A DNA stretch of 46,582 bases from a virus, in the IMG/VR virus record IMGVR_UViG_3300027970_000045, positions 1-46,582 of that record. One strand, given 5' to 3'. The position numbers were made by a program, and so were the translations under genes. Below are positions 15,063-43,825 of the stretch, one piece after another. Every line of letters starts with the position of its first letter. Within the stretch, counting starts at the first letter, position 1. The notes under the pieces are model-generated. The model was not told the origin of the DNA. It saw only the letters and a list, made by a program, of their open reading frames with translations, and did no database searches.

Positions 15063-15083
15063 TTATTCTTCTTATTTTCTCTC

Positions 15084-15091
15084 TATATATC
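15084..15091 (-). promoter_or_regulatory. Candidate late promoter element GATATATA
   Basis: GATATATA on the minus strand, 21 bp before the ATG at 15062 and just after the gp46 stop codon. It marks the switch from the replication to the virion gene block. Confidence 0.6.
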
Positions 15092-15096
15092 CACTT

Positions 15097-16764
15097 TTAA
15101 GAAATAGTTTCTATAGATAGTTTTGAGAAGCCACCTTCTCGGTAAGCTTCTACTTTTTTATCAAATAACTCCATAGGTAGTTCTGTGTGATTGATTACCC
15201 ATGTGTTAAGATTGTTTTCTTTTGATACTTCTGAAAGAATTTTTATAATCTCGTATATTCCAGCTGAATCGACCGAAGAGAAGATTTCATCTAAGAAAAG
15301 TAAATTAAGAGAAGGATATCGAATCTTTAAGATCTTTAGCATTGCAATAATGATAATGAAATCTGCTTTCTTTCTTTCCCCAGTTGACATACTTTTTGGA
15401 TTGATTTCTTCACCAAGAGCATTAATTATACAATTGAATTTATCATCAAATTTAATCGAATATGGAAGGTGTATTTGTGCAGCCATATTATGAATCGATT
15501 GATTTAATGAAGGAAGGATTGTTTTCATTGCAAGATTCTTAACACCATCATCACCTAAAATAGATTCAACAATTTCTAAGAATGTATCTTCTTGAACTTT
15601 CTTAATATGATTTGTTTTACGTTCTTTAGCTTTATTTGAATTTTCATTTACTAGTTCTTGTAAATAATTTTCATCGACCTCTTTAGTTTCCTTTACTAAC
15701 CTTTCTGCTTCGTTTTTATATTGATTTATCATCAAATTTATTCTTATAACAGAAGATTGAATTTCTTGAATTTTATTAGATATTTCTTTTGTTTTTGTAC
15801 TTACAGATCTAACAGATTCGTCTAGAGTATATTTTTTATCTTCTTTCAATTGAAGATTTTCTTCTAAATTTTCTTTGATAGATTTATGATGTTCTGTATG
15901 TAGATCTGATCCACAAGTAGGACATTGATTATTTGAATAAAGATTCATTTTTGTTTTATCATTCTTTATTTCGAAAGTTATTTCAGAAAGTTCTTTTTGT
16001 TCTTCATTTAGAGAAGTTAACATATTAGATTCTTTCTCTTTTATTTTTGAAACAAGATCTTCTAGTTTCTTCTTTTCACCTATAAGACCTATTATTTTCT
16101 CTTTGTATTCAGAAGCTAATTTAATGTTATCTTCTGCTTTAGATTTTTCTAAAGATTCTATTTTTTCATTAATCGAAGCAATCGATTCCTCGATGATATT
16201 TAGCTCGTCATTTATTGTTTTGATTTGCTCTTTAATTTCTCTTCTTTCCGATCTTATAGAATCCCTCATTGTATTAATTAAAGTGAATCCAAAAAGTCGA
16301 TCGACGATATTTCTTTTATCACCAACTGACATTGTAAGGAATGATCTAAAATCATTAATTGATAAAACGATGATATTCTTGAATACTTGATATGGTATAT
16401 CGAATAACTCATATTCGAGATAATCTTGTACATTAGAAGTACCTGAGGTATCATAAGGTACACCGTCTATGTCCACTTCGAAAAGACCAGGTGAAACTCC
16501 CCTAGTTATTGTTATTTTCTTTCCTTTTGAAATAACAACAATACGACACCAAAGATTCTTATTGATTCTATTAGGTAGATCACCTTTCTTTTTATTCTCT
16601 AGTTTTCCATATAGAGAAAATGTAATTACTTCGGATATTGTACTTTTTCCATTTCCGTTACCACCAAGAAGAAGATACAAATCTCCACCGTTTCCTAAAT
16701 CAATTCTTTGTGGAACATTTCCATAGGAATTAAAATTTTTCCATTCAACTGATTCTATTCTCAT
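15097..16764 (-). CDS. 46: Recombination nuclease ATPase subunit gp46 (SbcC/Rad50-like)
   Basis: With gp47 this forms the exonuclease complex that resects DNA ends for recombination-dependent replication and degrades host DNA in T4. The Walker A motif GGNGNGKST is at 34-42, coiled-coil arms surround a zinc hook CPTCG (Cys281, Cys284), and the ABC signature MSTGERKKAD and Walker B LLFLDEIFSS lie in the last 110 residues. The 555-residue length fits T4 gp46 (560). Its ATG overlaps the gp47 stop as TAATG, so the pair is translationally coupled. Confidence 0.96.
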   Translation of the reverse strand: MRIESVEWKNFNSYGNVPQRIDLGNGGDLYLLLGGNGNGKSTISEVITFSLYGKLENKKKGDLPNRINKNLWCRIVVISKGKKITITRGVSPGLFEVDIDGVPYDTSGTSNVQDYLEYELFDIPYQVFKNIIVLSINDFRSFLTMSVGDKRNIVDRLFGFTLINTMRDSIRSERREIKEQIKTINDELNIIEESIASINEKIESLEKSKAEDNIKLASEYKEKIIGLIGEKKKLEDLVSKIKEKESNMLTSLNEEQKELSEITFEIKNDKTKMNLYSNNQCPTCGSDLHTEHHKSIKENLEENLQLKEDKKYTLDESVRSVSTKTKEISNKIQEIQSSVIRINLMINQYKNEAERLVKETKEVDENYLQELVNENSNKAKERKTNHIKKVQEDTFLEIVESILGDDGVKNLAMKTILPSLNQSIHNMAAQIHLPYSIKFDDKFNCIINALGEEINPKSMSTGERKKADFIIIIAMLKILKIRYPSLNLLFLDEIFSSVDSAGIYEIIKILSEVSKENNLNTWVINHTELPMELFDKKVEAYREGGFSKLSIETIS

Positions 16765-17855
16765 TATTTTTCGTGTTTAATAGTTTCTTGATATATCGAA
16801 TTGATTTTCGACATAATTTTATCCTTTGTTTCACTTTCAATTGTTTTAACTGAAGTAATATATTTCTCACAAAGACTTATGATATTGAAAGTTCCTTCAT
16901 CTGAAAGACTACCTTCATCTACATCATCATAAAGATCCGCTTCATAAGGAATGACTTCGAGTTTCTTCGTTATTTCTGATAGGATATCGATAATTGGATT
17001 GATCTGATATCTCATAAGATAAGCTGAAGGAACATAAAGATCGACTCGATTATTTTGACATTCGGCCTTAAGATCTTCAACTGTTTTATCGATATATTTG
17101 TTCAAATAAACTCTTACGAATTTAGGTGAATATGTATTTTCTCTAAATTCGAGATTATCTGTTTCAAAATCAAGAAGATAAAACCCTTTTGTATTCATAG
17201 CATCTGATCTTGTCATTTGGTAAGGATTACCGATCATAGTAACATTTCCTTTTTGTTGTCCCCAATGAATATGCCCTGCAAAAACACGTCGTATGTCGGA
17301 AAGTTCTGTAACAGAAAGTCCTTCATCAACTTCACGATAATTGTCAAAATGTAGAGATCTGATATTAGTATGACAGAAGAGATAATCGATTCTATCTGAA
17401 CTAAAATCTGCTATACATTTTCTTTCTTCTTCGTCGTTAGTTCTCCATGGCATAAATAGAATTCTATTACTGCTTATTTCTGCAATCACTGGTTCTTTTA
17501 AGATATTAACTCTTGGAATGTATTTCAAACAATCAAGAGAAGAAACATCATTAGATGTTTTTCTCATTACGTCATGATTTCCAGCAATAACATAAATTCC
17601 ATCTATAAAGATTTCGGATAGCTTTTCGAAAAGAGTTATTCCTTTATGTAGAACAAGTAAATTAACAGATTGTCTATTATCAAATACATCGCCGTTGTGA
17701 ATAAGAATATCCCCTGGTTTATATTCGGCCTTTACTCTAGGAATGAAATCATTATCGAACCAATCCATCATTTCATCTAACCATTCGACCGAATTAGACC
17801 TAGCGCCAAAATGTGTGTCGGAAATTATAAAAGCTCGTTTAGCATCTATTTTCAT
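16764..17855 (-). CDS. 47: Recombination nuclease subunit gp47 (Mre11/SbcD-like)
   Basis: Metallophosphoesterase motifs occur in order: ISDTHFG (Asp13, His15), HNGDVFD (Asp56), AGNHDVM (Asn93, His94), FCHTNI and FAGHIHWGQ. These coordinate two metal ions in Mre11-family nucleases. The 363 residues agree with T4 gp47 (339). It is flanked by TAATG overlaps on both sides, linking it to gp46 and to the upstream 157-residue gene. Confidence 0.95.
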   Translation of the reverse strand: MKIDAKRAFIISDTHFGARSNSVEWLDEMMDWFDNDFIPRVKAEYKPGDILIHNGDVFDNRQSVNLLVLHKGITLFEKLSEIFIDGIYVIAGNHDVMRKTSNDVSSLDCLKYIPRVNILKEPVIAEISSNRILFMPWRTNDEEERKCIADFSSDRIDYLFCHTNIRSLHFDNYREVDEGLSVTELSDIRRVFAGHIHWGQQKGNVTMIGNPYQMTRSDAMNTKGFYLLDFETDNLEFRENTYSPKFVRVYLNKYIDKTVEDLKAECQNNRVDLYVPSAYLMRYQINPIIDILSEITKKLEVIPYEADLYDDVDEGSLSDEGTFNIISLCEKYITSVKTIESETKDKIMSKINSIYQETIKHEK

Positions 17856-18328
17856 TAGAATAAAGATTTGTGATTCTTAAGATATCCTCTTCTTTTTAAT
17901 TCAGTTATAAGTTCGGTCTTAAAAGTATTAGATAAAGATTCATAGAATTTATCTGGAGAAATATCATAAATGCTCGTAACAATAGAAAAAACTTCTATTT
18001 TCGGAACTTGTGTAAGTTTCTCGGTTATACATCGATAAATTTCATTTATTTCGCTTTTGTTTATCTTCGGAAATCCTCCTGTAGGAAGGGCCGAATTAAG
18101 AGTATTTAATCTATGATTTGATTTAATAAATTCTGTTACGTCAGCATAAAACATTGATTCATCTATTTTTTCATCGAAAGTTTTTTCAACGAAATTAGCA
18201 TCGATCGAGAATTTTTCAGTTGTATCGAGTTCTGTATTTTCGAAATCATTGTCGAAGATTTTGTCCCTAAATAAGGGTGCGTCGTTTTCTTCTTCTGGGT
18301 TATTAACCTCTAAATTTTCATTTTCCAT
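17855..18328 (-). CDS. Acidic small protein, possible late co-activator gp33-like (157 aa)
   Basis: The first 65 residues are strongly acidic and disordered-looking. The C-terminal ~90 residues look helical (SEINEIYRCITEKLTQ, SPDKFYESLSNTFKTEL, ITELKRRGYL) and the protein ends KNHKSLF. T4 gp33 is a small acidic helical protein whose extreme C-terminus (TLDFLL) binds the gp45 clamp; the layout here is similar, though I see no convincing alignment. It starts 1 bp after the gp41 stop and overlaps gp47. Other replication-associated functions are equally open. Confidence 0.8.
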   Translation of the reverse strand: MENENLEVNNPEEENDAPLFRDKIFDNDFENTELDTTEKFSIDANFVEKTFDEKIDESMFYADVTEFIKSNHRLNTLNSALPTGGFPKINKSEINEIYRCITEKLTQVPKIEVFSIVTSIYDISPDKFYESLSNTFKTELITELKRRGYLKNHKSLF

Positions 18329-18329
18329 T

Positions 18330-19628
18330 TTAGTTTGATGTATTTATTACGGTTTCTGTTTCTATTAACCGCATATATTTGTAGTCTATTTTATATAGAC
18401 ATCTACTACTTTTACCTGATCCATTTCTAATTTTTAGTAGCTTCAAAAAGTATTCATTGTTTACTAACATTGTACTATCTTGAATGATACCATAGATAAC
18501 ATCGGCTGTGTGTGATAGACCAGCTGATTCTGCGATATGACCCATATTTAATTCTGTAGAATCATATCCACCTCGATTAATTTGAGTTGCAGTAATTATA
18601 ATCCATTCGTTTCGAACCGCCATAGCACGTAAGTCTTCAGCGATTTGTTTGATTTTCATGTAGGTGTTTTCACTATTAGGATTTCTACAATTTGAAAGGA
18701 TGTTAATGTAATCAATGATAATTGCTTTTAGCTTAACACCTTTAGTTGATTCTAATTCTTTTAGATATCCTTCGATATCAGGAACAGTTGCTTGAGATGT
18801 TGGATATTCTTTAACGAAAAGATTTCCTGGAGGAATAACACCACCTCGAAGATTAGCTAATTTAGATTTAATTTGATCTGGATTTTTAGCATATTTTTCA
18901 TAATCTGAGATTGGTATATTAAGAAGATTAGATCCTATACGATAAGTGAAATCTATTTCTGCCATTTCTGCAGTAATGACAGCGACATCATATCCTGCTT
19001 TTACGTAATTTACAGCATCATTTGCTAACCAAATTGATTTACCGATGTTTTGTTCACCTGCATAAACAATAAGAGATTTTGTTCTATAACCACCTGTAAA
19101 ATGATCAATCCAATTATGACCTGTTGTGATTTTAGAATTTGCTTCTGGTATATGTGATTCCACGTCGAAGAAATCACGACCTAAAGATTCATTGAATGTA
19201 AGATTATTTCTTTCGTTAATTAGATTTTTAACCTTATTAACGATTTCCATTACGTTATTAGGCGTTACCTTAACAGTCTTAACGAATTCTAATGTATCGA
19301 TAAGAGATTTATCTAGATTTTTCCAAAGGATCCAAGATTCAGAAGTTTCCTTTACCCATTTTTCATCATATGAATCAATAGGTTCATCGAATATGATATC
19401 GATAATTTTTTCTGAAAGTTGACTCGAGAATTTTTCTTGTTTAGCTATTGCTTTTAATTGTTCCTTTGTAGGAACAGTACTAAATCGATCATTGAATGTT
19501 TTATCGATAGTAAATAAAGTTCCTATTTCATCGCTTTCGAAGAAATCTTGAGAAACAGATCTGAGGTAATTTGGATTGTTTCTAACGTATAGATAGAAGA
19601 TTTTTTCGAAGTCTGAAGATCCGATCAT
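18330..19628 (-). CDS. 41: Replicative DNA helicase gp41 (DnaB-like)
   Basis: gp41 is the hexameric 5'-3' helicase of the T4 replisome and works with primase gp61, also encoded here. The 432-residue protein has an N-terminal helical domain and a RecA-type motor: Walker A GEQNIGKS (191-198), LKAIIIDYINIL as Walker B, and the H3-type sensor ITATQINRGGY. These are typical of phage DnaB-family helicases. It lies downstream of uvsX with one small gene between, as in T4 (uvsX-40-41). Confidence 0.95.
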   Translation of the reverse strand: MIGSSDFEKIFYLYVRNNPNYLRSVSQDFFESDEIGTLFTIDKTFNDRFSTVPTKEQLKAIAKQEKFSSQLSEKIIDIIFDEPIDSYDEKWVKETSESWILWKNLDKSLIDTLEFVKTVKVTPNNVMEIVNKVKNLINERNNLTFNESLGRDFFDVESHIPEANSKITTGHNWIDHFTGGYRTKSLIVYAGEQNIGKSIWLANDAVNYVKAGYDVAVITAEMAEIDFTYRIGSNLLNIPISDYEKYAKNPDQIKSKLANLRGGVIPPGNLFVKEYPTSQATVPDIEGYLKELESTKGVKLKAIIIDYINILSNCRNPNSENTYMKIKQIAEDLRAMAVRNEWIIITATQINRGGYDSTELNMGHIAESAGLSHTADVIYGIIQDSTMLVNNEYFLKLLKIRNGSGKSSRCLYKIDYKYMRLIETETVINTSN

Positions 19629-19672
19629 AATTAAATTGTTTATAAAAATTATATGAATTCCTGAGTTAAGGT

Positions 19673-19984
19673 TTACATAAGCTCATAGTAGTTGGTAAAC
19701 TTAGTAGCTTTGTTTAGTTTGATTCTTCCGGATTCCTCAAGAGATTTGAGGAGTCTAATTGCTGACTCCTCATCTCCATCAAGTTTTTCTTTTAGAACTA
19801 CATCAGTAAAAACAAGATTACCTGTTTCTGTTATAGCTCGATATGAATGAATAAAATGGTGACCACCTTCATTCCAATACCAATTTTTTATTAGATATTC
19901 GAAATCTTCTATTGTCGGATAATTTAATTCATCCTTATAGGTTCCGATGATGTATTTTATTTTGATTTTTTCTTTATCAAACAT
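19673..19984 (-). CDS. Hypothetical protein between uvsX and gp41 (103 aa)
   Basis: No family is recognised. The sequence is mixed alpha/beta: an N-terminal strand-rich part (KIKIKYIIGTY), a Trp/His-rich stretch (NWYWNEGGHHFIHSY), and a C-terminal helix-turn-helix-like part (ESAIRLLKSLEESGRIKL). It sits where T4 has gene 40, but no similarity to gp40 is visible. The winged-helix look of the C-terminus would fit a nucleic-acid binder. It starts 3 bp after the uvsX stop. Confidence 0.8.
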   Translation of the reverse strand: MFDKEKIKIKYIIGTYKDELNYPTIEDFEYLIKNWYWNEGGHHFIHSYRAITETGNLVFTDVVLKEKLDGDEESAIRLLKSLEESGRIKLNKATKFTNYYELM

Positions 19985-19987
19985 GGC

Positions 19988-21172
19988 TTAATCTTCGTCT
20001 AAATCAGAAAGGAAATTTTCGATTTCAGGGGTTTCATCAGAATCGATTCCATAAGAGAATTTAGCTTTGATGCATTTTTCATTGATTAATTCGAGTACTT
20101 CTTGAGTCCAAACCATATCGGTAAATAGCTCTTGTGCAGAAACTCCTCTTCCTAAGTGTTTAACGATATAATTTCTTGCAGTATCTCTTGGCATAAAGTA
20201 AACTGTATCTCCGTCGATTTGAAATGGTCTTGATTTTTCCTTTTCAGCCTCAGTCCATTTATCATAATCTTTTTGTGGATGGATGTTTCCTTTTTGAATA
20301 CCGCAATTATCCCATGACATATATTCTTCCATTCCAATATAAGGATTCATTCCTCGATCCCAACGAATATGGAATTTAATAGGAATTGGTTTACCAAAAC
20401 GATTCTTTAAAGTCTTAACAGAAACGATAATTCCTGTTTGTATAGCACCATCTTTAATTTGTGCTTTCGAAAGAGCAAGAATAACCGAAGCCGAATAAAC
20501 TAATCCTCCACCACCTGAAAGGTTAATTGTAGGGAACATACCTGTTGAAGCATATGTGTGATTAGTAAAGACAAAAGGAATTTGTAATCCTGTTAAATCT
20601 GAAGTAATGATACGGAATAAAGATCTAATGGATTTTGCACGAGTCATATCGGCTGCTGTATTACCGCTGATTGCATCATCTATTTCTTTTGTAGTTGCAA
20701 GCATTCCTAAAGAATCAAGTGCAATAAAGATCTTAGGAGTCGTAAATCCTTTCTCTTTAGCTTCCATTAACTTTTTAGTCAATGTAGTAATTGAGGTTCT
20801 GAATTTTGCTAAATCAGAAACTGGTTGATGATCGAATCTTTCAGGATCCACACCGAATGCTTGAATGTTATCAACATCTACAGCACCTTCAGTATCGTAA
20901 TAAATTACATAATAACCCATTTTCTGAGCCTGTGCAACCATGTTAAGAAGAAGGAATGTTTTTCCTGTTCCTGAATCACCTGCTAAACAGATTGTTCTAT
21001 TGTTTGGAATACCACCAAATAAATCTCCACTGAAGACTGCATTTAAGTGATAATTACCTGACGGAATCCATTCAGTAATTTTAGAGAAATCAGACTTACT
21101 GATAACGTCCCCAAATGGATTTATTTTTCGTAGCTCCTTTTGAAGCTCACCAATTGAAAATTCTTTTGCCAT
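19988..21172 (-). CDS. uvsX: RecA-like recombinase UvsX
   Basis: UvsX forms filaments on single-stranded DNA and catalyses strand exchange. Here Walker A is GDSGTGKT (65-72), Walker B is IFIALDSLG, and the L1/L2 region contains NLSGGGGLVYSAS. The 394-residue length matches T4 UvsX (391), and the C-terminus is acidic (NFLSDLDED), as in T4. Its partners UvsY and gp32 are also encoded in the window. Confidence 0.96.
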   Translation of the reverse strand: MAKEFSIGELQKELRKINPFGDVISKSDFSKITEWIPSGNYHLNAVFSGDLFGGIPNNRTICLAGDSGTGKTFLLLNMVAQAQKMGYYVIYYDTEGAVDVDNIQAFGVDPERFDHQPVSDLAKFRTSITTLTKKLMEAKEKGFTTPKIFIALDSLGMLATTKEIDDAISGNTAADMTRAKSIRSLFRIITSDLTGLQIPFVFTNHTYASTGMFPTINLSGGGGLVYSASVILALSKAQIKDGAIQTGIIVSVKTLKNRFGKPIPIKFHIRWDRGMNPYIGMEEYMSWDNCGIQKGNIHPQKDYDKWTEAEKEKSRPFQIDGDTVYFMPRDTARNYIVKHLGRGVSAQELFTDMVWTQEVLELINEKCIKAKFSYGIDSDETPEIENFLSDLDED

Positions 21173-21228
21173 ATTTACTTTTAATTTTTTATATTATATG
21201 ATTAATTAGATGCTTGATTTTTAATAAG

Positions 21229-22416
21229 TTAGAATAAACTTACCGTATAAGCTAATGAAGGATTGAGTGGAGGTAATCCTGCTGGAACGATAATTCGATT
21301 TAGAGGATCAATAATGGTCGATCTAAATTGTCCTTCTATATCCATTTTAGGAGCGAATTCCATAGGGAATTGACCTGGTTTGTAAGCGAAAACATTACAA
21401 AAATCATCGGCTGCATGATACCATTTTACTTTACCACCGGCACCAATAAGTTCATATTTACCTTTCATTCCACTTTGATGTAGTAGGTAATTATGATAAC
21501 CACCTGCTCGAATATGAATAGGACAACCTGAATTCATTTCGAATGTATCGGTATCATTTAGAATAAATTTACGATAATCGGATATTCCACGAGACATGGA
21601 AATCTTTTCGATATTAGAAAGCTTGAATTCTTTCTTTATTTCTTTGATTAGACCTACGAGTTCAGCGTTATCTTTTACTGTTAATTTTTTCTTCGAGAAG
21701 ATGAATTTTACAATTTCAATAAGTTTTTCTCGACAGAAAGGAGGTGTACTCGATTGAATAATTTCTAATCCTGTAGTTTTGATATAACTTAAAGGTTCAT
21801 ATTCCTTACCATCTTTCCAAATGATATTTTGAACGTATTTTTTCTTTGCTACCCATATAGCATTTTCTGCAATAGTTTCTAATTCGAAATCTAAGTAGTT
21901 TTCTGTGTTATTTACTTTTGCGTAATCATCAAGAACTTTCTTAACATAAGCAGCTAATCGGAAATTGTTAAGTGTTAAAACAAAATCTTTTACAGACCCT
22001 TGCCAATTAACAGCTTCGATACATTCTTCGAAAATTAAGTAACCTGAATCGGTATCTGTATATTTCCATACCTTTCCTTTAATAGGAGGAACCACTTGAT
22101 CTTCTTTAACACCTAGAGCTGCTAGTAAAGGTTTATCTCGATGAAAAAATTCTGAGAAGTATTTTTCAATTAATCTTTCAGTGTATTTGATTGCATCTTG
22201 ACCTTGAAGAGTAACTGTTTCTGCGATTGCTATGTTATAAAAATGAAAGTATTCATTAGCAAAGGCACCATAGATACTGTTAATCGCAAGTTTGATACTT
22301 TGTTCGAATGAATAACAATTAAGGGATTCTTTTTTTAGAAGTTCTATATCTTCTTCTGATAGATCTGCTTTGATTAAACCTCGAATATCTTCATCCGTTA
22401 AGTTTTCTATATTCAT
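21229..22416 (-). CDS. 43: DNA polymerase gp43, C-terminal half (split family B polymerase)
   Basis: This 395-residue ORF begins inside the polymerase domain: motif B KLAINSIYGAFAN (from Lys42) and motif C YTDTDSGYL (Asp121, Asp123) are present, then the thumb region with TGLEIIQSSTPPF, as in T4 gp43. There is no exonuclease domain or motif A; these are in the separate ORF at 26293-27672. It ends in VSLF, reminiscent of the SLF within T4 gp43's clamp-binding C-terminus. The ATG is 1 bp after the gp45 stop (TAATATG), so synthesis is probably coupled to the clamp. Confidence 0.93.
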   Translation of the reverse strand: MNIENLTDEDIRGLIKADLSEEDIELLKKESLNCYSFEQSIKLAINSIYGAFANEYFHFYNIAIAETVTLQGQDAIKYTERLIEKYFSEFFHRDKPLLAALGVKEDQVVPPIKGKVWKYTDTDSGYLIFEECIEAVNWQGSVKDFVLTLNNFRLAAYVKKVLDDYAKVNNTENYLDFELETIAENAIWVAKKKYVQNIIWKDGKEYEPLSYIKTTGLEIIQSSTPPFCREKLIEIVKFIFSKKKLTVKDNAELVGLIKEIKKEFKLSNIEKISMSRGISDYRKFILNDTDTFEMNSGCPIHIRAGGYHNYLLHQSGMKGKYELIGAGGKVKWYHAADDFCNVFAYKPGQFPMEFAPKMDIEGQFRSTIIDPLNRIIVPAGLPPLNPSLAYTVSLF

Positions 22417-22417
22417 A

Positions 22418-23167
22418 TTATTCCGTTATTGCAAGATTTAATGCGATTGTAGTATTTGTTTCTTGAGAAGTTAAAATTAGCTTGTTTTCACAAACAGAAA
22501 CGTGATATGTTTCTTTATCTACTCGTTCAAAGAATGATTTGAAAGTTGATTTTTGAATTCCATCGCTGATTTTTTGATTATCATCTATAATGATATCGAA
22601 TGCATCTGTTTTAATATGAATTCCATCGGATTCACCTGTAATTTTTAGAAGTTCTGATTTATCTAAAGAAATTAGAGATGATACTTTTGTAAAGTCTTCT
22701 TTTGAATACTGGAATTGAAATAGCTCTGAAGATTTATCGAATGCTCGAGTAACTTGATCTTCTGTCATTGAAGTGAAACCTAATGAAATATCTTGACAAT
22801 GAATTTCAATCTTTAGTTTTTGATCACGAAGAATCATTTTATCAGCATAGAAAACCCCTTCGTCTTCGTCTTTGAAGATTGATATTTCCATTTGTAAATG
22901 ATGTGGATCGAAGTGTCCTATACAATTTGCTAATCTAGATCCTGAAAAGAATGATAGCTTAATTGTTTCTTCTATTGGGCTTTCAAATGTAAAAACATCT
23001 GAAGTCGGCATAGAAAACGATTTAACAACATCTTTAGTTGGTGTATAGACAGATGACCATACTTGATCTTTGTTGATATTAATGTATAACGACGTATCCA
23101 TTAACAACATTTTTCGAATCAGTCCATTAAGATGGGCAACTGATACTTTTGTTACTTTTACTTTCAT
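22418..23167 (-). CDS. 45: Sliding clamp gp45-like
   Basis: I start at the ATG at 23167 (MKVKVTKVSVAHLNG), because the upstream residues would overlap the preceding stop region. At 249 residues it is close to T4 gp45 (228). It shows the repeated strand-helix pattern of processivity clamps, with acidic surfaces and PTKDVVKSFSMP, ETIKLSFFSGSR and KETYHVSVCENKLILTS stretches. Sequence similarity to T4 gp45 is weak, so the call rests on size, fold pattern and position directly before a polymerase half. In T4 the clamp tethers the polymerase and activates late transcription. Confidence 0.72.
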   Translation of the reverse strand: MKVKVTKVSVAHLNGLIRKMLLMDTSLYININKDQVWSSVYTPTKDVVKSFSMPTSDVFTFESPIEETIKLSFFSGSRLANCIGHFDPHHLQMEISIFKDEDEGVFYADKMILRDQKLKIEIHCQDISLGFTSMTEDQVTRAFDKSSELFQFQYSKEDFTKVSSLISLDKSELLKITGESDGIHIKTDAFDIIIDDNQKISDGIQKSTFKSFFERVDKETYHVSVCENKLILTSQETNTTIALNLAITE

Positions 23168-23183
23168 TTTTATTTTTATATGT

Positions 23184-23402
23184 TTATTTTGTTTCCATAA
23201 TCCATCCTTCACTTTGAAGTGATCTTAACCAAGATTCTAGGTCTTTTTTTATTACACAATGTGAATGGGCTGTTTTGTTTGTTTTCTTTTCGATGTATCG
23301 GATTTCAAAAAACCATCCATCGGCATCCATAGATTTATCTACGAAGACTTCTATTGTTTGTCTAGCTTTTGGTTTAGTTAATACGTATACAGGATTTTCC
23401 AT
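23184..23402 (-). CDS. Small hypothetical protein before gp45 (72 aa)
   Basis: A compact mixed alpha/beta sequence with an amphipathic C-terminal helix (KKDLESWLRSLQSEGW). The family is not recognised. It starts 17 bp after the nrdA terminator and ends 16 bp before gp45, so it heads the gp45-polymerase-uvsX transcript if transcription restarts there. The ATG follows AAATAAAT. Confidence 0.75.
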   Translation of the reverse strand: MENPVYVLTKPKARQTIEVFVDKSMDADGWFFEIRYIEKKTNKTAHSHCVIKKDLESWLRSLQSEGWIMETK

Positions 23403-23419
23403 ATTTATTTTATGTAAAA

Positions 23420-23446
23420 AACAAAAGGGAGATTTGCATCTCCCTT
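23420..23446 (-). terminator. Rho-independent terminator after nrdA
   Basis: The minus strand has a 9-bp stem (AAGGGAGAT with ATCTCCCTT), a GCAA tetraloop and then TTTTG TTTTTT. It lies 18 bp after the nrdA stop and separates the reductase genes from the gp45 group. Confidence 0.9.
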
Positions 23447-23464
23447 CATTTGTTAATTAGTTTT

Positions 23465-25264
23465 TTATCCATCACACGATAAACAGCTTTCATCAAGAGC
23501 TTTAATAGCTATATCTCCTCGAAGAACTGATTCAGTTCGCATATAGTAAAGAGTTTTTATTCCTTGTTTATAAGCTTCCATATGAACTTGATTAATGAAT
23601 TTAGGTGTAGCTTCAGTTGGGAAAGCAAGATTCAAAGAAACAGATTGATCTATATATTGTTGTCTCAAACCTGCTTGTTTAACTAGTTCTAATTGATTAA
23701 TTTCTTTGAAAGTTTTGAATACGTCTTTGAATGGAATTAGATCAGCCCTTTCAGAATCTGTCATATCAATAATTTTTTCTGAGTTAACTAAATTGCTATC
23801 ATTAAAGAACCATCCGTCAAGAAAATCTAGACCTTGAACAGACCCTCCATCTGAAAGTATTTGATCCCAAATTTCTTTGTTGTTTTTCTTTATTTTCTTA
23901 AGGGCTCTTTCTAATGTAGGATTTTTACGAATGAAAGTTCCTTTTGCAGTTTGTTCAGTGAATACATTAGCTGCCCATGGTTCGATTCCAGGAGAAACAT
24001 TTCCACTTAGTTTGGAATTAGAAACTGTTGGAGCAATAGCTCTTAAATGTGAATTTCTCATTCCTGTTCCGATACACCAAAGTGGTTCTCCATATTCTCT
24101 TGCCATATCTCTACTTGCTCGTTCAGATTCAAGTTTAAGTTGTGAGAAGATTTTTCTTGTTTCGTATTGAGCAAGAAGACCTTCAAATGGAAGTCCTTTC
24201 TCTTGAAGATATGTATGCCAACCAAGAACTCCAAGACCTAAAGCTCGACCTTTTTCTGCAGAACGAACTGAATTAGAAAACCCTGACATATATTTTGCTT
24301 TCTGAATAAATTCTTCAAGGACACCATCTAAAAACCACGTAGAAGTATAAATTAGATCTGTATCTTTCCATTCGCTATATTTTGCAAGATTAATAGAACT
24401 TAAACAACAAACAAAAGAATGAGATTCGTCCGTATGTAGAGTAATTTCCGAACATATATTAGTCATATAGACTTTTAATCCATTTTTTGAATATGCTTCG
24501 GGATTTGATCGATTAACATTTCCTTTGTACATAATATAAGGTTCTCCTGTAGATCTACGTTTACGAAGAACTGCTGACCATTTAGATCTAGATTCTTTAT
24601 CGCCTAATTCTACCTTTTGCATAAAAGAATCCGATATCACAACACATTGATGAAGATTAAGAGATTGACGATTAACATCACCTTTAGGTTCTCTAATTTC
24701 TAACCATTCCCAAAAATCATTATGTTCAATATCCATATTTACTGAAGCAGCACCTCTTCTAACTGAACCTTGACTTGTTGCTAATATAGTTGAATCATAT
24801 ATCTTACAAAAAGGAACAACACCATCTGAAGTTCCATTGTTTTTTATAACTGTTCCTGCAGGTCTTATTTGATTAATTCCAATTCCTACACCACCTCCAT
24901 GTTTAGCTAGTAACATAAGTTCTAAATTCTTTGTTCCTATATCGAAAATAGAATCTGCAACATCGATACCAAAACACGAAATAGGTAATCCTCTTTCGGT
25001 TCCTGTGTTTGATAAAACAGGAGTGGCAAGATTTAACCATCCTTTAAAAACATAATCAAAAAACTTAGAAGCCATTTCTGGTTTTCCTAGTCTTTTAGCT
25101 ACTGTTGTACAAACTCGCCAATAAGCATCTTTTGGTTTTTCACCTGCTAATAAATAGCCTTTGCTTATAGTTTTTAAGTAAGTTTCTGTGTGGCCCCAAA
25201 TTGGATAATCTACTCCAACTTCCCAACCTAATGATTCAGCTATTGAATCTGCGTTACCTATCAT
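23465..25264 (-). CDS. nrdA: Ribonucleotide reductase class I alpha subunit NrdA
   Basis: It reduces ribonucleotides to deoxyribonucleotides with NrdB, supplying dNTPs. Active-site features are Cys97 (PISCFG), the N-x-C-x-E triad Asn269-Cys271-Glu273, the radical-transfer tyrosines Tyr573-Tyr574 (LYYMRTE), and the C-terminal redox pair CLSC (594, 597). At 599 residues it is much shorter than E. coli NrdA (761). The sequence starts close to the catalytic core, so the N-terminal ATP-cone that carries allosteric activity control appears to be absent. Confidence 0.96.
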   Translation of the reverse strand: MIGNADSIAESLGWEVGVDYPIWGHTETYLKTISKGYLLAGEKPKDAYWRVCTTVAKRLGKPEMASKFFDYVFKGWLNLATPVLSNTGTERGLPISCFGIDVADSIFDIGTKNLELMLLAKHGGGVGIGINQIRPAGTVIKNNGTSDGVVPFCKIYDSTILATSQGSVRRGAASVNMDIEHNDFWEWLEIREPKGDVNRQSLNLHQCVVISDSFMQKVELGDKESRSKWSAVLRKRRSTGEPYIMYKGNVNRSNPEAYSKNGLKVYMTNICSEITLHTDESHSFVCCLSSINLAKYSEWKDTDLIYTSTWFLDGVLEEFIQKAKYMSGFSNSVRSAEKGRALGLGVLGWHTYLQEKGLPFEGLLAQYETRKIFSQLKLESERASRDMAREYGEPLWCIGTGMRNSHLRAIAPTVSNSKLSGNVSPGIEPWAANVFTEQTAKGTFIRKNPTLERALKKIKKNNKEIWDQILSDGGSVQGLDFLDGWFFNDSNLVNSEKIIDMTDSERADLIPFKDVFKTFKEINQLELVKQAGLRQQYIDQSVSLNLAFPTEATPKFINQVHMEAYKQGIKTLYYMRTESVLRGDIAIKALDESCLSCDG

Positions 25265-28727: not shown

Positions 28728-28753
28728 TCGGCCGGCAAACCTTATACGGCCGA
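28728..28753 (-). repeat. GC-rich inverted repeat across a stop codon
   Basis: TCGGCCG and CGGCCGA form a perfect 7-bp stem with a 12-bp loop. The stem is very GC-rich in an AT-rich genome and spans the TAA of the gp23-arm-like gene. There is no T-run, so it is not a standard terminator; it may be an RNA-stability element or a scar. Confidence 0.55.
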
Positions 28754-28990
28754 TCTTAGTTCTTCACTACCTTTGATAAAATCTTTGAATCTTACGAAGG
28801 AGGATTTCTTCATTTTCTTTGGTTGTCCTTTAGACAACGTATAAGGAATATCACCAGATCCTGTTTCTTGAGTGACATAGTCATTCTGAGTTCCTGGATT
28901 TCCTGGCATTGAAGGGGAACCCATTCCACCAACTGAACTAACAGTTGCTGCTGCAGAATTTTCTTTTAGAAAATCTTCGTATGTAGACAT
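28742..28990 (-). CDS. Head protein copying the gp23 N-terminal arm (82 aa)
   Basis: From the ATG at 28990 the protein starts MSTYEDFLKENSAAAT, a targeting peptide with a cut after L-K-E (residue 10). An alternative ATG at 29014 adds eight residues. Residues 18-52 align without gaps to gp23 residues 51-85, with 19 of 35 identical, including GMGS, PGTQ, GSGD and TL. In both proteins this segment starts 7 residues after the predicted gp21 cut. The C-terminal third is basic with a second targeting-like stretch (FVRFKDFIKGSE). I infer a packaged head protein that mimics or competes with the gp23 arm. Confidence 0.8.
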   Translation of the reverse strand: MSTYEDFLKENSAAATVSSVGGMGSPSMPGNPGTQNDYVTQETGSGDIPYTLSKGQPKKMKKSSFVRFKDFIKGSEELRSAV

Positions 28991-29018
28991 GGGTGTATGT
29001 TTTCTTTTTGGCATCTTA

Positions 29019-30516: not shown

Positions 30517-30524
30517 TATATATC
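30517..30524 (-). promoter_or_regulatory. Candidate late promoter element GATATATA
   Basis: GATATATA on the minus strand overlaps the TGA stop of the ligase-like gene and lies 25 bp before the ATG at 30491, heading the block of small head proteins. Confidence 0.55.
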
Positions 30525-31749
30525 AAAGTTTGATTCCTCGAGAATCATCCGTCTTTTTAGTGAAGAATTCTTCATATGTAGGAAAAGAATTAGATTCACC
30601 TACTTTTTTGGTTTCTAAAACTTTATCTTTAATTTTCTTAGCTAGATCTATAGTATCATCAATAAGCATTTGAGTAACAGTTCCGCTAGGTTTTTTCTTC
30701 GGTTTAGAGAAAGAACTCATAAGAATTTTGAAGATGTGCTTGTTGATTGTAGATTCTTTAATTAGATCTCTAACTTTTTGATCTTTAATGAATCCTGTAT
30801 TAAGATCGAATTCAGGAACCGATGCAAAAGAAAGAGGATCTATTTCAATTCCGTTATATTTATAGCCATATTTTTTCATGTATTGTGAAAAGATTTGACA
30901 AACAAGTTCTAAATATCTAGCATCTTCTCCTTCTTCTTTAAGACCATATTTTTGAAGTCCTGTTACTTTGATATATTCAACAAGATCAGAAAGAATAATT
31001 CCATAAAGATCTTGAGGTTCTCTTTCTTCATCATTAGATCGATTGATTTGTGTAATTACAGGATCTATTACTTTTGAATGGAAAACTTCACTAGTATCAT
31101 CTGAAATAAATTTGAAGATGATAGAATCGATAGGTTTTTCTATATCGTTTTTAAGAGCTGTAGCTTCAATCTCGGGATTAAGAATTGATATGATATATTT
31201 AGTGAATGAATCTGTAGAAAATCTTTTTATTAGCTCATCTTCTTGAGTTCTAAGATATTCTAAGATTCTAGTTTTTTGTGATTTATCTAACTTACCATAC
31301 CAAATAACAGGAGGTTTTTCTACTCTTAGAAGATCCGATATTCCATTAAGAATTGATACATCATCTATGATTTTACCTGTAGGATTTTTAATATCAGTTA
31401 AGACGAGACCGTTTAGAGGAATTTTATCATAAACTATATTAGCAGGTTTTGTATTATGAAAATAACGAAGACCAAATTTGAATCCGATAGGAAGTTTCAT
31501 CATATCTTCTTTAGGAAGAGATTCAATAAAACGAATAGGTGCTTCATAAAGTGAAGACATCGTTCTATCGATAGATGTTATAGGTCCATCTTTTTTGAAG
31601 AATTTAATTCCCTTAGGTCCGTTATATTCGAAGCAAAATCTAGTAGCATTAAGCTTTTCACTAACAACAACAAATCCATCTAGTAGTTTATTAACGAAGG
31701 GCATTCCTTCTTTTAGATATACCTGTCTTAGGGATAAAATTTCTGCCAT
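30523..31749 (-). CDS. Nucleotidyltransferase-like (ligase-fold?) protein (408 aa)
   Basis: The N-terminal region looks like the covalent nucleotidyltransferase fold of RNA/DNA ligases: VVSEKLNATRFCFE (Lys32) sits where ligases have motif I K-x-D-G, followed by GIKFFKKDGP, IGFKFGLRYF (motif III-like) and PLNGLVLTDIK. The K-x-D-G is degenerate (K-L-N-A), so activity is uncertain. The C-terminal half is helical. The C-terminus contains SFPTYEEFFTKK, which resembles the N-terminal targeting peptides of other proteins (LPTYEQYLITE) but lacks the final cleavage Glu. Its start overlaps the previous stop as TAATG. Confidence 0.7.
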   Translation of the reverse strand: MAEILSLRQVYLKEGMPFVNKLLDGFVVVSEKLNATRFCFEYNGPKGIKFFKKDGPITSIDRTMSSLYEAPIRFIESLPKEDMMKLPIGFKFGLRYFHNTKPANIVYDKIPLNGLVLTDIKNPTGKIIDDVSILNGISDLLRVEKPPVIWYGKLDKSQKTRILEYLRTQEDELIKRFSTDSFTKYIISILNPEIEATALKNDIEKPIDSIIFKFISDDTSEVFHSKVIDPVITQINRSNDEEREPQDLYGIILSDLVEYIKVTGLQKYGLKEEGEDARYLELVCQIFSQYMKKYGYKYNGIEIDPLSFASVPEFDLNTGFIKDQKVRDLIKESTINKHIFKILMSSFSKPKKKPSGTVTQMLIDDTIDLAKKIKDKVLETKKVGESNSFPTYEEFFTKKTDDSRGIKL

Positions 31750-34151: not shown

Positions 34152-35216
34152 CTATACGCTTCGGATGTCCAGTGGTTCATGTGTAAAGTATTTATCGAGA
34201 TTTTTAATTGCTTCGTTTTTGTTTTTCCAACAGTAGATGAATAGATCATTTAGATCTTTAACTTGTTCTCTTACTTTGAAATCTCTAACGAGCTTATTCC
34301 ACATGAAGACATTTTTTCTTTTTTTAAGTTTTGCTTCCATAACTCTTCTTCCTGCATTATCGTTATCGAAAAGATATCGTATTGTTGTTATATCGTCAAA
34401 CATTTCAGTAGGTTTGTCTGCACCTGTTATAGCTATTGAATTTGGTTGTAAAAAGGAATCAATAACACCTTCAAATATAGTAACATTCTTAGAGAAATCA
34501 GCAGATAGAATACCGAAGTAAAGACTCATAGTATTTAACTTAATTATTTCGTCTTCTGATCGATCTTCGATGCCTCGACCGAAAAGTAGATAGTTTATTT
34601 TTTCTATATTGAAACTGACGTATTTAGCTCTGTTTTCTTGAAAGTTTCTAATCTGCCATCCTAGAATTTTAGTTTTATCTGGAGTTAGATTGAGAACATA
34701 TAGCTGATCTTTCTTTTTATCGTAAAGGAAGTGATCCATTTTGAAATGCATGAATCGAGCTTTAAGATATTTTTCAATAGTCATATCTTCAGAAGGATGT
34801 AAGAGTCTTAGTTTTGATTTGACGGTTTCGTAAGGAATACCGAATTCAACAAGATTTTGAAATGTGTTGAGTTCAAGATATTCCTTAGTTACCGTTGATA
34901 CACGATGTTCACGTATATAATCTAAAAAGAACGTTAATTCATCAGTATTTTGAACAGGACTGTTAAAATCTTTATAGAAATTTACAAGATTAGTGTGCTT
35001 TTTACAACCATCATTGAAGCAATGATACATTAGATTTGCCCAATAGATATTAGCACGTTTTTTGTGTTCATTCGTAGAATCCCCACAATAAGGACATGCA
35101 AAGTTAAGTCTATCTCTAAAAAATCTTACTTCTCCCTTTACTCCTGAGAATTCTGATTTTATGATATTTTCGACCTTAGCATTAATCTGTAATTTTTTCT
35201 GTTCAGTTATTTCCAT
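34152..35216 (-). CDS. 61: DNA primase gp61-like
   Basis: gp61 makes RNA primers for lagging-strand synthesis and works with helicase gp41. The N-terminal zinc site uses Cys41, Cys44, Cys66 and Cys71 (CPYCGDS ... HCFNDGCKKH). The central and C-terminal parts hold the TOPRIM signatures TIFEGVIDSF and YLFDNDNAGRR. The 354-residue length matches T4 gp61 (342). It starts 5 bp after rmlA. Confidence 0.92.
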   Translation of the reverse strand: MEITEQKKLQINAKVENIIKSEFSGVKGEVRFFRDRLNFACPYCGDSTNEHKKRANIYWANLMYHCFNDGCKKHTNLVNFYKDFNSPVQNTDELTFFLDYIREHRVSTVTKEYLELNTFQNLVEFGIPYETVKSKLRLLHPSEDMTIEKYLKARFMHFKMDHFLYDKKKDQLYVLNLTPDKTKILGWQIRNFQENRAKYVSFNIEKINYLLFGRGIEDRSEDEIIKLNTMSLYFGILSADFSKNVTIFEGVIDSFLQPNSIAITGADKPTEMFDDITTIRYLFDNDNAGRRVMEAKLKKRKNVFMWNKLVRDFKVREQVKDLNDLFIYCWKNKNEAIKNLDKYFTHEPLDIRSV

Positions 35217-38733: not shown

Positions 38734-39072
38734 TTATTTTTTTCCAGTTGTTCTATTCTTTTCAATCCAGGCTTTAAATACCTTAATAGCATCTCGCATT
38801 TCTGGTGTTTGATGTTGATGTTTTTCAGCTCTATTCAACATGGTTGTAGCAACTGACATTGCCCACATATGTTCTCCTTTTTTCTCTAGTCCATCTAACT
38901 GTTTACAAGTAGATTCGGCTTTTGCAGCATTTGCATATCCAGTTCCTTTTAGAGCATACTTACCTCCTCCTGTATAAAGTCCATCTTCTTTAGGATCACC
39001 TGGAGCTCTCTTATGTCCTTGTCCTTTATCCCCTTCGTTGATAAATTCGTCAAAATCCATTATGTTTTTCAT
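38734..39072 (-). CDS. Targeting-peptide protein (112 aa)
   Basis: The ATG at 39072 (rather than the TTG two codons earlier) gives MKNIMDFDEFINEGDKGQ, a targeting peptide with an I-N-E site. The mature part begins with a basic Gly-rich stretch (HKRAPGDPKEDGLYTGGG) and continues as a helical domain (ANAAKAESTCKQLDGLEKK, then HMWAMSVATTMLNRAEKHQ and FKAWIEKN). A GATAAATA element lies 20 bp before the start. The family is unknown; internal head localisation is inferred. Confidence 0.8.
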   Translation of the reverse strand: MKNIMDFDEFINEGDKGQGHKRAPGDPKEDGLYTGGGKYALKGTGYANAAKAESTCKQLDGLEKKGEHMWAMSVATTMLNRAEKHQHQTPEMRDAIKVFKAWIEKNRTTGKK

Positions 39073-39092
39073 AGTCAATTTTTTTTATATTT

Positions 39093-40763: not shown

Positions 40764-43003
40764 TGTGTCTCGTTAGGTTTTTGACTCGAAGCCGGTGTAC
40801 TCTTTATGTTAGCTAAAGCTTTTCGGATTAGCTTATTTCCGACAGATGTATTAGATTCAGTTGCTGTCGGAGTTGATGTAACATCATTAGCTACATTTTG
40901 TAATCCATTAATCTGTGAAATTGCTTGTAATGTAGCATTCATAGTTGAAGTAAGTGAAGATATTTGTCCGTTTAATTGTTCTATAGTAGAATTCATTGAA
41001 TTGATCTGTTGATCTTTCTGTTCTATCATAGAATTAGTTTGTGAAATTACATCTTCAACCGTTGTTGTTGCAGTTACAGGAGTTAATACAGGTTGATTAG
41101 CTGCTGATTGTAACTGTTGATTTGTCGAATTCAAAGAATCGATAGTTGTTTTTTGTTGATCTACGACTGAATTTACTCCTTGTAATTGAGATGTTAAAGT
41201 TACTACTTGAGTTTCTAAATCTGCAATCTTACTATTCTTTTGAATATCTTGAAATTCTGATGTTGAGAAGAAATCTCCTGCATAAAGGAATGTTCTATCT
41301 TTTTGATCATTTTCTATAAAGATTCTAAATGATCTATTTGCTAAAGCTAAAACTCTACGAGTATCATTCTCGGAAAGACGGAAAATTACTTCTCCACCTC
41401 CCTTAGATGTATATTGATTAGGGAATTCTATAAATTCTAAATTTTCACCTTGAGACGAATCAAAAACAATATACAAATCTCCAAGACCTGCGAGATTCAT
41501 TCTCGTATTTTGTCCATTTTCTTTTTGAAATAAAGTAAATTTCAAGAAAGCTACAGATTCTGGTATAAGAACTCTGCCTAATCCATTGCTATAAATTTGT
41601 TGATTTGATGTTCCTGTATTTTGTAAAGTAGTATCACCTGAAGAAGATGGATTTACCGTTTCAGTTGTTATAGAAATTTCAGAATTCGTAGAGAATGATG
41701 TAACATATTTTGTACTATTCAAAACCGGTTCAGTTATTCTATTGATTTGAATATCCTTAATAACATTCTGGTTGTATATTTTAGTTTGTATTGGATTTGT
41801 TCCTAAAGCAATAGACTTAAGTTTTCTACCATATTTAGCTGCTGATTGTGAAATCATCGAGGAAGTTTTCCAAACTTGTGAATTATCTTGTCTGTTGTAT
41901 AAACGAACAACATAATCTATTTTATACGCTATAGCCGAATTATTTTTTATAATTGGTCGATAAAAATTAGGTTTGTCATATTCATCAATCTGAGAAATTT
42001 GAAGATCATCTGTTTTAATCCAAGAATAAGTCGAAGATGTATTATCATAAACATATTCTGATATTACCAAATCGTGAAGAAGAATGAAATCATATCCACT
42101 ATTATTCAAATCTAGAATGTAATTCTCTATAATGGATCCATTATAAGTTGCATAAAATTCTATATAATCGCCATCTGACGATTCTTCAATAAATGCAGAA
42201 ATCGAAGAGAATTGATCCCTGACGGGTAGATCTATGGCTTTTGTGTCATATATATTTAAGTATTCTTGTCCGTCATTAATTTCACGATCACTAACCCATC
42301 CGAAATAAACAGAGATAAGTTGACTACGCATTATTCCATTGAAATTAGTGATTCTTTCAACTACAGTATCTCCAGAAAGAACACCTAACCAATAATCATA
42401 AATAAGATTGTAAAGAGAAAGAACTCTTAGCTCAACATAAGAACTATAAACTTTACCACTAAAGAAGAAAGGATTTGGATTTATAATCTCAAAAGAAGAA
42501 TCTTCCTTATTATATGAATAATTTGCTAGAACTAAATTAGTATCATCTTTCTTTTTACATTTGATTGAAAGAACTAGACCGAAATTATCTTCAAAATTGA
42601 ATCCTTGAACAAGATGTAATCTGATTGTATCATATACAGGAGCTTGTGGATTTGTAAATGTTATAGGTAAACTGGGTGTAGATGTAAGAAGCGGATCGTA
42701 ATCATTATAGAATACAAGCTTATTTATATCTAATGATGCACCTTTATAAGGTAGAATTGCAGCGAAAGCTCGATTTCTAACATTAGCAGTTCCTATAGGA
42801 AGACCATCTTGAATAATCTCAGAAGAATCTGCATTCAAAATTTGATCTTCATTAGAATGTCCATTACTCATTTTCCAAATAGGAGCTGTTGAAGTAGATA
42901 TTCTAAATTCATTACCAGGATCGTTAATTACATCCTGATCTGAGTATATGTACTCCATCAAAACCGATGAAGAAACCTGTATGTATTTAGATGATGTTGC
43001 CAT
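40760..43003 (-). CDS. Large virion structural protein with coiled coil (747 aa)
   Basis: Residues 1-590 are beta-rich and Asn/Ser-rich, typical of tail or baseplate-associated proteins (KLVFYNDYDPLLTSTPS, DEYDKPNFYRPII). From about 595 to 700 a heptad-like coiled coil occurs (IADLETQVVTLTSQLQG, MIEQKDQQINSMNSTIEQL), followed by a Thr/Ser-rich tail. A trimeric fibre connector or baseplate protein is likely. No family is recognised. The start overlaps the preceding stop as TAATG. Confidence 0.82.
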   Translation of the reverse strand: MATSSKYIQVSSSVLMEYIYSDQDVINDPGNEFRISTSTAPIWKMSNGHSNEDQILNADSSEIIQDGLPIGTANVRNRAFAAILPYKGASLDINKLVFYNDYDPLLTSTPSLPITFTNPQAPVYDTIRLHLVQGFNFEDNFGLVLSIKCKKKDDTNLVLANYSYNKEDSSFEIINPNPFFFSGKVYSSYVELRVLSLYNLIYDYWLGVLSGDTVVERITNFNGIMRSQLISVYFGWVSDREINDGQEYLNIYDTKAIDLPVRDQFSSISAFIEESSDGDYIEFYATYNGSIIENYILDLNNSGYDFILLHDLVISEYVYDNTSSTYSWIKTDDLQISQIDEYDKPNFYRPIIKNNSAIAYKIDYVVRLYNRQDNSQVWKTSSMISQSAAKYGRKLKSIALGTNPIQTKIYNQNVIKDIQINRITEPVLNSTKYVTSFSTNSEISITTETVNPSSSGDTTLQNTGTSNQQIYSNGLGRVLIPESVAFLKFTLFQKENGQNTRMNLAGLGDLYIVFDSSQGENLEFIEFPNQYTSKGGGEVIFRLSENDTRRVLALANRSFRIFIENDQKDRTFLYAGDFFSTSEFQDIQKNSKIADLETQVVTLTSQLQGVNSVVDQQKTTIDSLNSTNQQLQSAANQPVLTPVTATTTVEDVISQTNSMIEQKDQQINSMNSTIEQLNGQISSLTSTMNATLQAISQINGLQNVANDVTSTPTATESNTSVGNKLIRKALANIKSTPASSQKPNETQ

Positions 43004-43818: not shown

Positions 43819-43825
43819 ATTTATA

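Follow-up and report, generated by a model that had tools for sequence, protein, structure and literature searches.

The arm-copy gene and the head genes of the window

The viral source record (46.6 kb; "the window" here means the whole analysed stretch of 46,582 nucleotides) holds the gene for the major capsid protein gp23 and a short open reading frame whose product, hereafter the copy, resembles the N-terminal arm of this capsid protein. The features concerned are:

1241-2863, minus strand: major capsid protein gp23, 540 aa (Pfam Gp23, 3e-36; PHROG major head protein, 4.5e-33)
2609-2713, minus strand: gp23 arm that is copied, residues 51-85 (from the match to the copy)
base 2735, minus strand: predicted gp23 cleavage after E43 (read from the sequence)
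3364-5268, minus strand: prohead protease (Pfam Peptidase_S77, 6e-11; PHROG head maturation protease, 4e-39)
5330-6940, minus strand: portal protein gp20 (PHROG portal, 5e-72)
28742-29014, minus strand: arm-copy gene, 90 aa, ATG at 29014 (relatives, purifying selection)
28990, minus strand: inner in-frame ATG of the arm-copy gene, which would give 82 aa
28961-28990, minus strand: N-terminal capsid-targeting-like peptide MSTYEDFLKE (pattern and eye; start likeness to T4)
28835-28939, minus strand: arm (N-fist) copy, residues 26-60 (19/35 identical to gp23 51-85)
28799-28834, minus strand: basic, lysine-rich linker SKGQPKKMKKSS (read from the sequence)
28745-28798, minus strand: C-terminal targeting-like helix FVRFKDFIKGSEELRSAV (kept in close relatives)

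The small frame of 82 residues originally predicted at 28742-28990 exists. It lies on the minus strand, the plus-strand translation of 28742-28990 being interrupted by stops, and the 90-residue form starting at 29014 is likelier because the relative L005 has Ile instead of Met where the inner start would be. The frame is also present in close relatives, a check proposed with the original prediction, since a scan with the 90-residue protein gave 12 loci. Among seven sequences including that of the window (64 codons), dN/dS was 0.06-0.21 in all 21 pairs, with dS saturated in some of them, and purifying selection acts on the arm-copy protein. The 90-residue protein matched no Pfam family and is thus without an HK97-fold capsid body (PF07068); DUF3008 (PF11450) was likewise not found in it by Pfam, and none of six counterparts of the window protein matched a Pfam family.

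From its N to its C terminus, the copy consists of the targeting-like peptide, a glutamate, seven residues, the arm copy, the linker and a second targeting-like helix. By pattern and by eye, the first peptide appears to be an N-terminal capsid-targeting peptide of about 10 aa, as in T4-type internal head proteins: MSTYEDFLKE resembles MKTYQEFIAE, with which two T4 internal virion proteins start, and MKTFKEFIKE, the start of T4 gp61.1. A gp21-type cleavage is predicted behind residue 18, the last E of this peptide, at the position that corresponds to the gp23 site; the prohead protease at 3364-5268 is the likely cutter. A low-confidence structure model of the copy (mean pLDDT 61) has helices only at residues 12-19 and 76-88.

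By eye, the protease itself seems to be fused to a long scaffold-like helical C-terminal part with several targeting-like motifs; genes 21 and 22 are separate in T4, whereas protease and scaffold-like part are apparently one gene in the window. Among named phage records, the window gp23 is closest to that of LR756500 (a 462-kb uncultured phage, 55% identity) and then to those of the Lak phages of Prevotella.

Targeting-like starts were also found, by pattern or by eye, in 12 other minus-strand proteins of the window (at 2951, 8243, 8592, 9421, 10570, 13220, 29019, 29357, 37337, 37672, 38734 and 39819), which suggests that a large set of proteins may be loaded into the head of this phage. In a 408-aa protein (30523-31749, minus strand), a targeting-like stretch (SFPTYEEFFTKK) lies close to the C-terminus and may be a targeting signal placed there. 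The 13 proteins compared with the arm were picked by pattern and by eye, and 43003-43836, which fits the pattern loosely, was left out. Beside the copy, 11 of the other 12 showed no arm likeness and one was borderline. This protein, at 38734-39078, scored 45 against the arm (best of 500 shuffles, 38), and 0.8% of 5000 shuffles did as well against the whole of gp23; the likeness was treated as chance, as relatives do not keep it. A weaker echo of the arm had been claimed for the 246-aa protein at 9421, which is no better than shuffles (score 20, equalled by 76% of 5000).

The copy matches the arm of the window gp23

In T4, the N-fist comprises gp23 residues 66-91. This structure of 25 residues touches four subunits belonging to two capsomers and locks neighbouring capsomers in the mature head (available text of PMC7136217 and PMC9958956). 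In the window, residues 26-60 of the copy (18-52 of the 82-aa form) align with gp23 51-85 exactly as predicted, without gaps, and both segments begin seven residues after a cleavage-like glutamate (LKE before N in the copy, LYE before S in gp23). The whole copy scored 119 against gp23 in local alignment, a score that none of 3000 shuffles of the copy reached (mean 31, maximum 54). For the arm segment alone the score was 103, with a maximum of 57 in 20000 shuffles, and a translated search within the window genome gave E 5e-11 over copy residues 12-60. Alignment and shuffles agree that the protein is a copy of the mature gp23 arm, and the arm match withstood the shuffle check suggested for it.

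The match ends two residues before the boundary of the gp23 body. In a low-confidence model of gp23 (mean pLDDT 53), helix within the arm is limited to four residues, and a longer one begins at residue 85, where the copied stretch stops. After the match, the copy has nine K/R in the next 30 residues and a net charge of +6.

At the 19 residues identical between copy and gp23, the codon is the same in eight cases and different in 11. Since identical residues often use different codons, the window copy is old and has been kept at the protein level. These data bear on the reading that the gene is a functionless relic of a duplicated gp23 gene. It is small and its context is variable, as a relic's might be, but the low dN/dS in every pair (with the saturation noted above) and the different codons at identical residues, here and at 11 of the 17 identical residues of T4 gp61.1 and T4 gp23, speak against decay. 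Given purifying selection, we regard this reading as hardly credible.

Arm proteins in related jumbo-phage contigs

An alignment-based scan gave 36 loci, gp23 itself among them. Of 14 whole related records, 12 encode a further arm protein beside gp23, and in three of these 12 the copies are identical; the remaining two are a 55-kb record with the second arm protein only and a 94-kb record with gp23 only. We read 24 distinct arm proteins other than gp23. Their usual core is an acidic site, the arm, a K/R-rich stretch and a targeting-like helix, flanked variably by a targeting-like peptide, a DUF3008 domain, nothing, or fusions of up to 853 residues. DUF3008 was above the Pfam cut-off in four of five relatives tested. 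The arm of one group of gp23s contains HLNPNMNVQGMGA, and the same or nearly the same stretch occurs in four arm proteins (L122, L116, L125, L127) from other contigs than those gp23s. Two very long arm fusions with repeated acidic sites (853 residues at L106:3694-6252, with ESVNEG; 537 residues at L115:9497-11107) look like polyproteins of internal head proteins.

T4 gp61.1 and other lineages

A search of the T4 genome that used its gp23 arm as query brought up gene 61.1, which immediately precedes primase gene 61. Its 54-aa product, listed as hypothetical in PHROG 1823, has a targeting-like start common to two T4 internal virion proteins, a glutamate in register, a copy of gp23 67-93 and a lysine-rich tail. 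It scored 82 against T4 gp23 (0 of 5000 shuffles). Among 1422 T4 reading frames compared with the arm, gp23 (146) and gp61.1 (69) stand out, the next scoring 39, and among solved structures the best match of gp61.1 was gp23 58-94 (E 0.0067). From gp23, T4 gp61.1 copies the N-fist and hardly anything more.

The PHROG 1823 profile did not match the window protein, whose only PHROG match up to E 1 is to another family (0.15). The two proteins have a design in common, and descent from one ancestor is possible. Gene 61.1 has no T4 late-promoter consensus nearby, the closest one on that strand (15000-24500 examined) being at 15603. In the available text of the literature searched, which covered few subscription papers, we found gp61.1 named only as hypothetical, no description of it as a gp23 copy, and nothing on its presence in T4 virions.

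Arm copies also occur in six other Straboviridae, and in four of these about 110 aa precede the copy. In Lak-A2 an unannotated 54-aa frame copies the phage's own arm (E 0.003), and in Tenacibaculum phage PTm1 a 279-residue frame with a copy (E 3e-9) lies just before the protease gene. No copy was detectable in the complete genomes of PAU and MA9V-2 by sequence search and local alignment of 1336 and 1572 reading frames, so the copy is not indispensable to this capsid type.

Two further frames were noted in these searches. In Aeromonas phage PX29 (L209, 96320-96415), a 141-aa frame ends in a resemblance to a later gp23 stretch (DEICGVQPMSEHTSKIYTLR, E 9e-8) and is perhaps a copy of a second gp23 segment. 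In Vibrio phage PVA8 (L208 and L210, 179994-180818), one 302-aa frame holds, in two pieces, the second match to the Gp23 family; it may be an unusual or shortened gp24.

Cyanophage copies and their presence in virions

The cyanophages were reached via DUF3008. S-SCSM1 gp275, a 61-aa protein labelled "major head protein", is encoded near the DUF3008 gene and copies the arm of S-SCSM1 gp23, quite different in sequence from that of the window, followed by a basic tail. We read 11 cyanophage copies (S-SCSM1 and ten more), all of them upstream of the primase gene and no more than two genes away from it; the window copy is not adjacent to its primase-like gene, identified by eye at 34152-35216. The cyanophage copies fall in PHROG 696 or 3286 (T4-GC 426, 657 and 1363 in four records) and are labelled "major head protein" or hypothetical. 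Three of the 11 have no N-terminal extension. Each of 11 cyanophage records searched has one Gp23-family match, and ten of these 11 have a copy. The arm-copy design is wider than the window phage, extending to T4 gp61.1 and these cyanophage proteins with other arm sequences.

Bellamy gp176, also in PHROG 3286, has a weak arm likeness, and no arm copy was seen in the S-SCSM2R protein with a DUF3008 region. Arm copies are called "major head" or "major capsid protein" in PHROG 696 and in the GenBank records of Serratia phage 4S and Shigella phage KNP5, labels that presumably stem from the arm alone. A segment of 1.7 kb in S-SCSM1 (L160:2501-4181) holds both DUF3008 and the arm copy, and several jumbo phages have the two fused; DUF3008 probably belongs to the same head function as the arm copy.

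Evidence for a place in the virion exists for one or two members. S-CREM2 ORF160 (128342-129235), whose coordinates are those of the S-CREM2 arm copy, was detected in purified virions with seven unique peptides and 13.1% coverage (PMC10665884, Table 3, in the available text). In S-SCSM1, the copy (MK867354.2) and the nearby DUF3008 protein are labelled "virion protein". The available texts report 45 virion proteins by mass spectrometry for S-SCSM1 (PMC9602691) and 41 for S-SM1 (PMC3037559). Virion presence is shown for one cyanophage copy by published mass spectrometry and indicated for a second by its record label.

In six of the 11 cyanophages the copy is the start of a 193-297-aa protein. 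The arm might, by analogy with the cargo-loading peptides of encapsulins, be a shell-docking tag for cargo, anchoring a fused domain that does the real job on the DNA, at the portal or in the host after injection. These long proteins, the fusions to DUF3008 and to other N-terminal domains and the jumbo-phage frames of up to 853 aa would suit such a tag, but T4 gp61.1 and several others have only a short charged tail, and we think this reading quite unlikely.

Copies compared with the gp23 of their own phage

We assembled 31 pairs of a copy and the gp23 of its own phage: 11 from jumbo phages, 11 from cyanophages, seven from Straboviridae, and those of Lak-A2 and PTm1. The pairs were found by sequence search, and the shuffles check each pair and say nothing about prevalence. 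Left out were Bellamy gp176; LR756500, with a copy identical to that of contig 3300025030_000039; contigs 3300009158_000031 and 3300009159_000038, with copies identical to that of 3300027733_000028; and contig 3300021958_000049, noticed late (score 97, 0/500 shuffles).

Thirty of the 31 copies beat all 500 shuffles against their own gp23, and the score of the weakest was reached by one of 500. Over all families, the mean score was 91 against the own gp23 and 43 against others (P 5e-5). When own and permuted gp23 were compared within families, the difference was significant for jumbo phages (P 0.002) and cyanophages (P 0.00015) and not for Straboviridae (P 0.12). The own gp23 was the single best match for only nine of the 31 copies, and for P-SSM7 it was the worst of 11 in the family. 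We also considered that copies track their own gp23 beyond phylogeny. With the gp23 body controlled, this was not significant within any family (partial Mantel P 0.65, 0.09 and 0.09); over all 31 pairs the partial r was 0.275 (P 0.0002), with differences between families dominating. Each copy carries the arm type of its lineage; any finer matching within families is not significant once the gp23 body is controlled.

In 19 of the 27 copies long enough to tell, a glutamate lies at exactly the position that corresponds to the gp23 site; at each of 24 other offsets this holds for 0-5. Some of the alignments counted already include that residue. This agrees with the earlier claim that the match backs both cleavage sites. 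Allowing three residues on either side, a glutamate was found in 26 of 31, and four of the other five copies start about where gp23 is cut. The alignment ends within four residues of the start of the gp23 body in 21 of the 31 pairs, 8-26 residues past it in seven and 7-20 short of it in three. At least five K/R occur in up to 30 residues after the match in 30 of 31 copies, and the net charge there is positive in 29, the others being T4 (0) and c25168 (-10, an acidic stretch). The original prediction of a basic tail in place of the capsid body holds as to the K/R-rich stretch; the tail of the window protein also contains a C-terminal targeting-like helix. The window protein belongs to this class of own-gp23 arm copies, its match lying between cleavage site and body and a K/R-rich stretch standing in for the body.

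The register of the glutamate is also what one would expect if the arm stretch were a recognition element of the gp21 protease or of a gp23 chaperone rather than a part that docks in the shell. Against this, 11 of the 12 other window proteins with targeting-like starts are without arm likeness (the borderline one, at 38734, not being kept in relatives), and the copies that start after the cut still keep the arm, which makes a pure recognition role very unlikely.

A proposed N-fist surrogate

In the available text of PMC9958956 and PMC7136217, the N-terminal regions of gp23 are disordered inside the prohead and reach the outer surface on expansion. The N-fists help to form the Soc sites and are described for gp23 and not for gp24, and the five portal-facing N-fists are disordered (same sources). 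With this background, on balance we favour the reading that the copy is loaded into the head, trimmed by the protease, and stands in for the gp23 N-fist by docking in the shell's N-fist sockets. That the segment of gp23 between the cut and the first body helix is copied, usually following a targeting-like peptide or a small N-terminal domain with an acidic site at its end, and that the protein has the architecture described, can be read directly from the sequences; docking is inferred. The original observation is confirmed. Its interpretation is supported as to the copied arm, the two cleavage sites and the basic stretch in place of the capsid body; its further suggestions, that the copy might occupy arm-binding sites, regulate assembly or tether DNA to the shell, are possible roles.

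The copy would enter the prohead with the scaffold core, and the gp21 protease would free its N-terminus in the same register as that of gp23. On expansion, its N-fist would dock in a socket otherwise used by a gp23 N-fist, while the basic part would stay inside, touching DNA or portal or holding a cargo domain to the shell. The likeliest free sockets would be those that lack a gp23 partner. Every phage of this kind should have them next to the portal, and Straboviridae should also have them at the gp24 vertices, because N-fists are described for gp23 only. A copy that plugs gp24 vertices only was also considered, and is weakened by the cyanophage records with one Gp23-family match and a copy. 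Because copies occur in phages with a single Gp23-family gene, the portal would be the common docking site. A plain plug does not account for everything, since six of the 11 cyanophage copies head longer proteins. More specifically, and tentatively, a separately made N-fist may snap into the shell where the lattice offers none, above all at the portal vertex, so that a self-mimic seals or signals the symmetry-mismatched vertex; this is possible rather than probable, and gp61.1 would be its model member. Against docking, T4 capsid structures exist and none shows a copy; the available text of PMC7136217 contains neither "extra density" nor "unassigned".

The copy could instead act in the prohead only, as an assembly regulator. 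It might compete with the gp23 N-termini while these are disordered, or bind the scaffold through its targeting-like helices and gp23 through its arm, and in this way connect the core with the shell or set the time of expansion; most of it would then leave. The targeting-like helices at one or both ends of the copies fit such a role, as does the position of the gp23 N-termini, inside and disordered before expansion (PMC9958956, available text). One cyanophage copy was found in virions, another is labelled a virion protein, and four of the 31 copies begin about at the gp23 cut and need no cleavage, all of which argues the other way; we judge a regulator of this kind unlikely.

Some host defences sense capsid proteins, as with Lit and the Gol region of gp23, and the copy might be a decoy that shields gp23 from a host sensor, or an injected effector that acts in the next host. 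The copied part, however, stops about at what we take to be the start of the Gol region, and we consider this role highly improbable.

In T4 as in cyanophages the copy lies near the primase gene, which suggests that it arose once, long ago, and then changed along with gp23. It may also have been copied independently several times, because the copies do not align with confidence between families.

Comparison with known systems

Under the surrogate proposal, gp61.1, an orphan protein of the exceptionally well studied phage T4, gains a concrete and testable role, and so do the cyanophage "major head protein" entries without a capsid body; what began as a metagenomic oddity can be studied by routine work on T4. 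Should the docking prove right, capsids could be secured by a trans-acting imitation of their own subunit, and the copy would provide a short tag of natural origin with which to fix cargo inside T4-like heads.

The closest likeness in design is with T4 gp61.1, which shares with the window copy the targeting-like start, the acidic site in register, the copy of the own gp23 and the lysine-rich tail, and differs in its other arm sequence, its length of 54 aa and its lack of a C-terminal targeting-like helix. It is a relative in design and names no mechanism. The cyanophage proteins of PHROG 696 and 3286 likewise have the gp23 arm of their own lineage followed by a K/R-rich stretch, but often begin a longer protein; they are not a major head protein. 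T4 internal head proteins share with the copy a targeting-like N-terminal peptide ending in an acidic site (PMC9958956, available text), whereas no T4 frame besides gp23 and gp61.1 has a standout arm match. T4 gp24 probably arose from gp23 by duplication and became specialised for certain sites (PMC9958956, available text). It keeps the whole fold, whereas the window copy keeps only the N-fist. Encapsulin cargo-loading peptides, which are short and dock cargo on an HK97-fold shell, are to our knowledge not copies of part of the shell protein itself; their likeness to the copy lies in its proposed role, that of a short peptide that docks on a shell.
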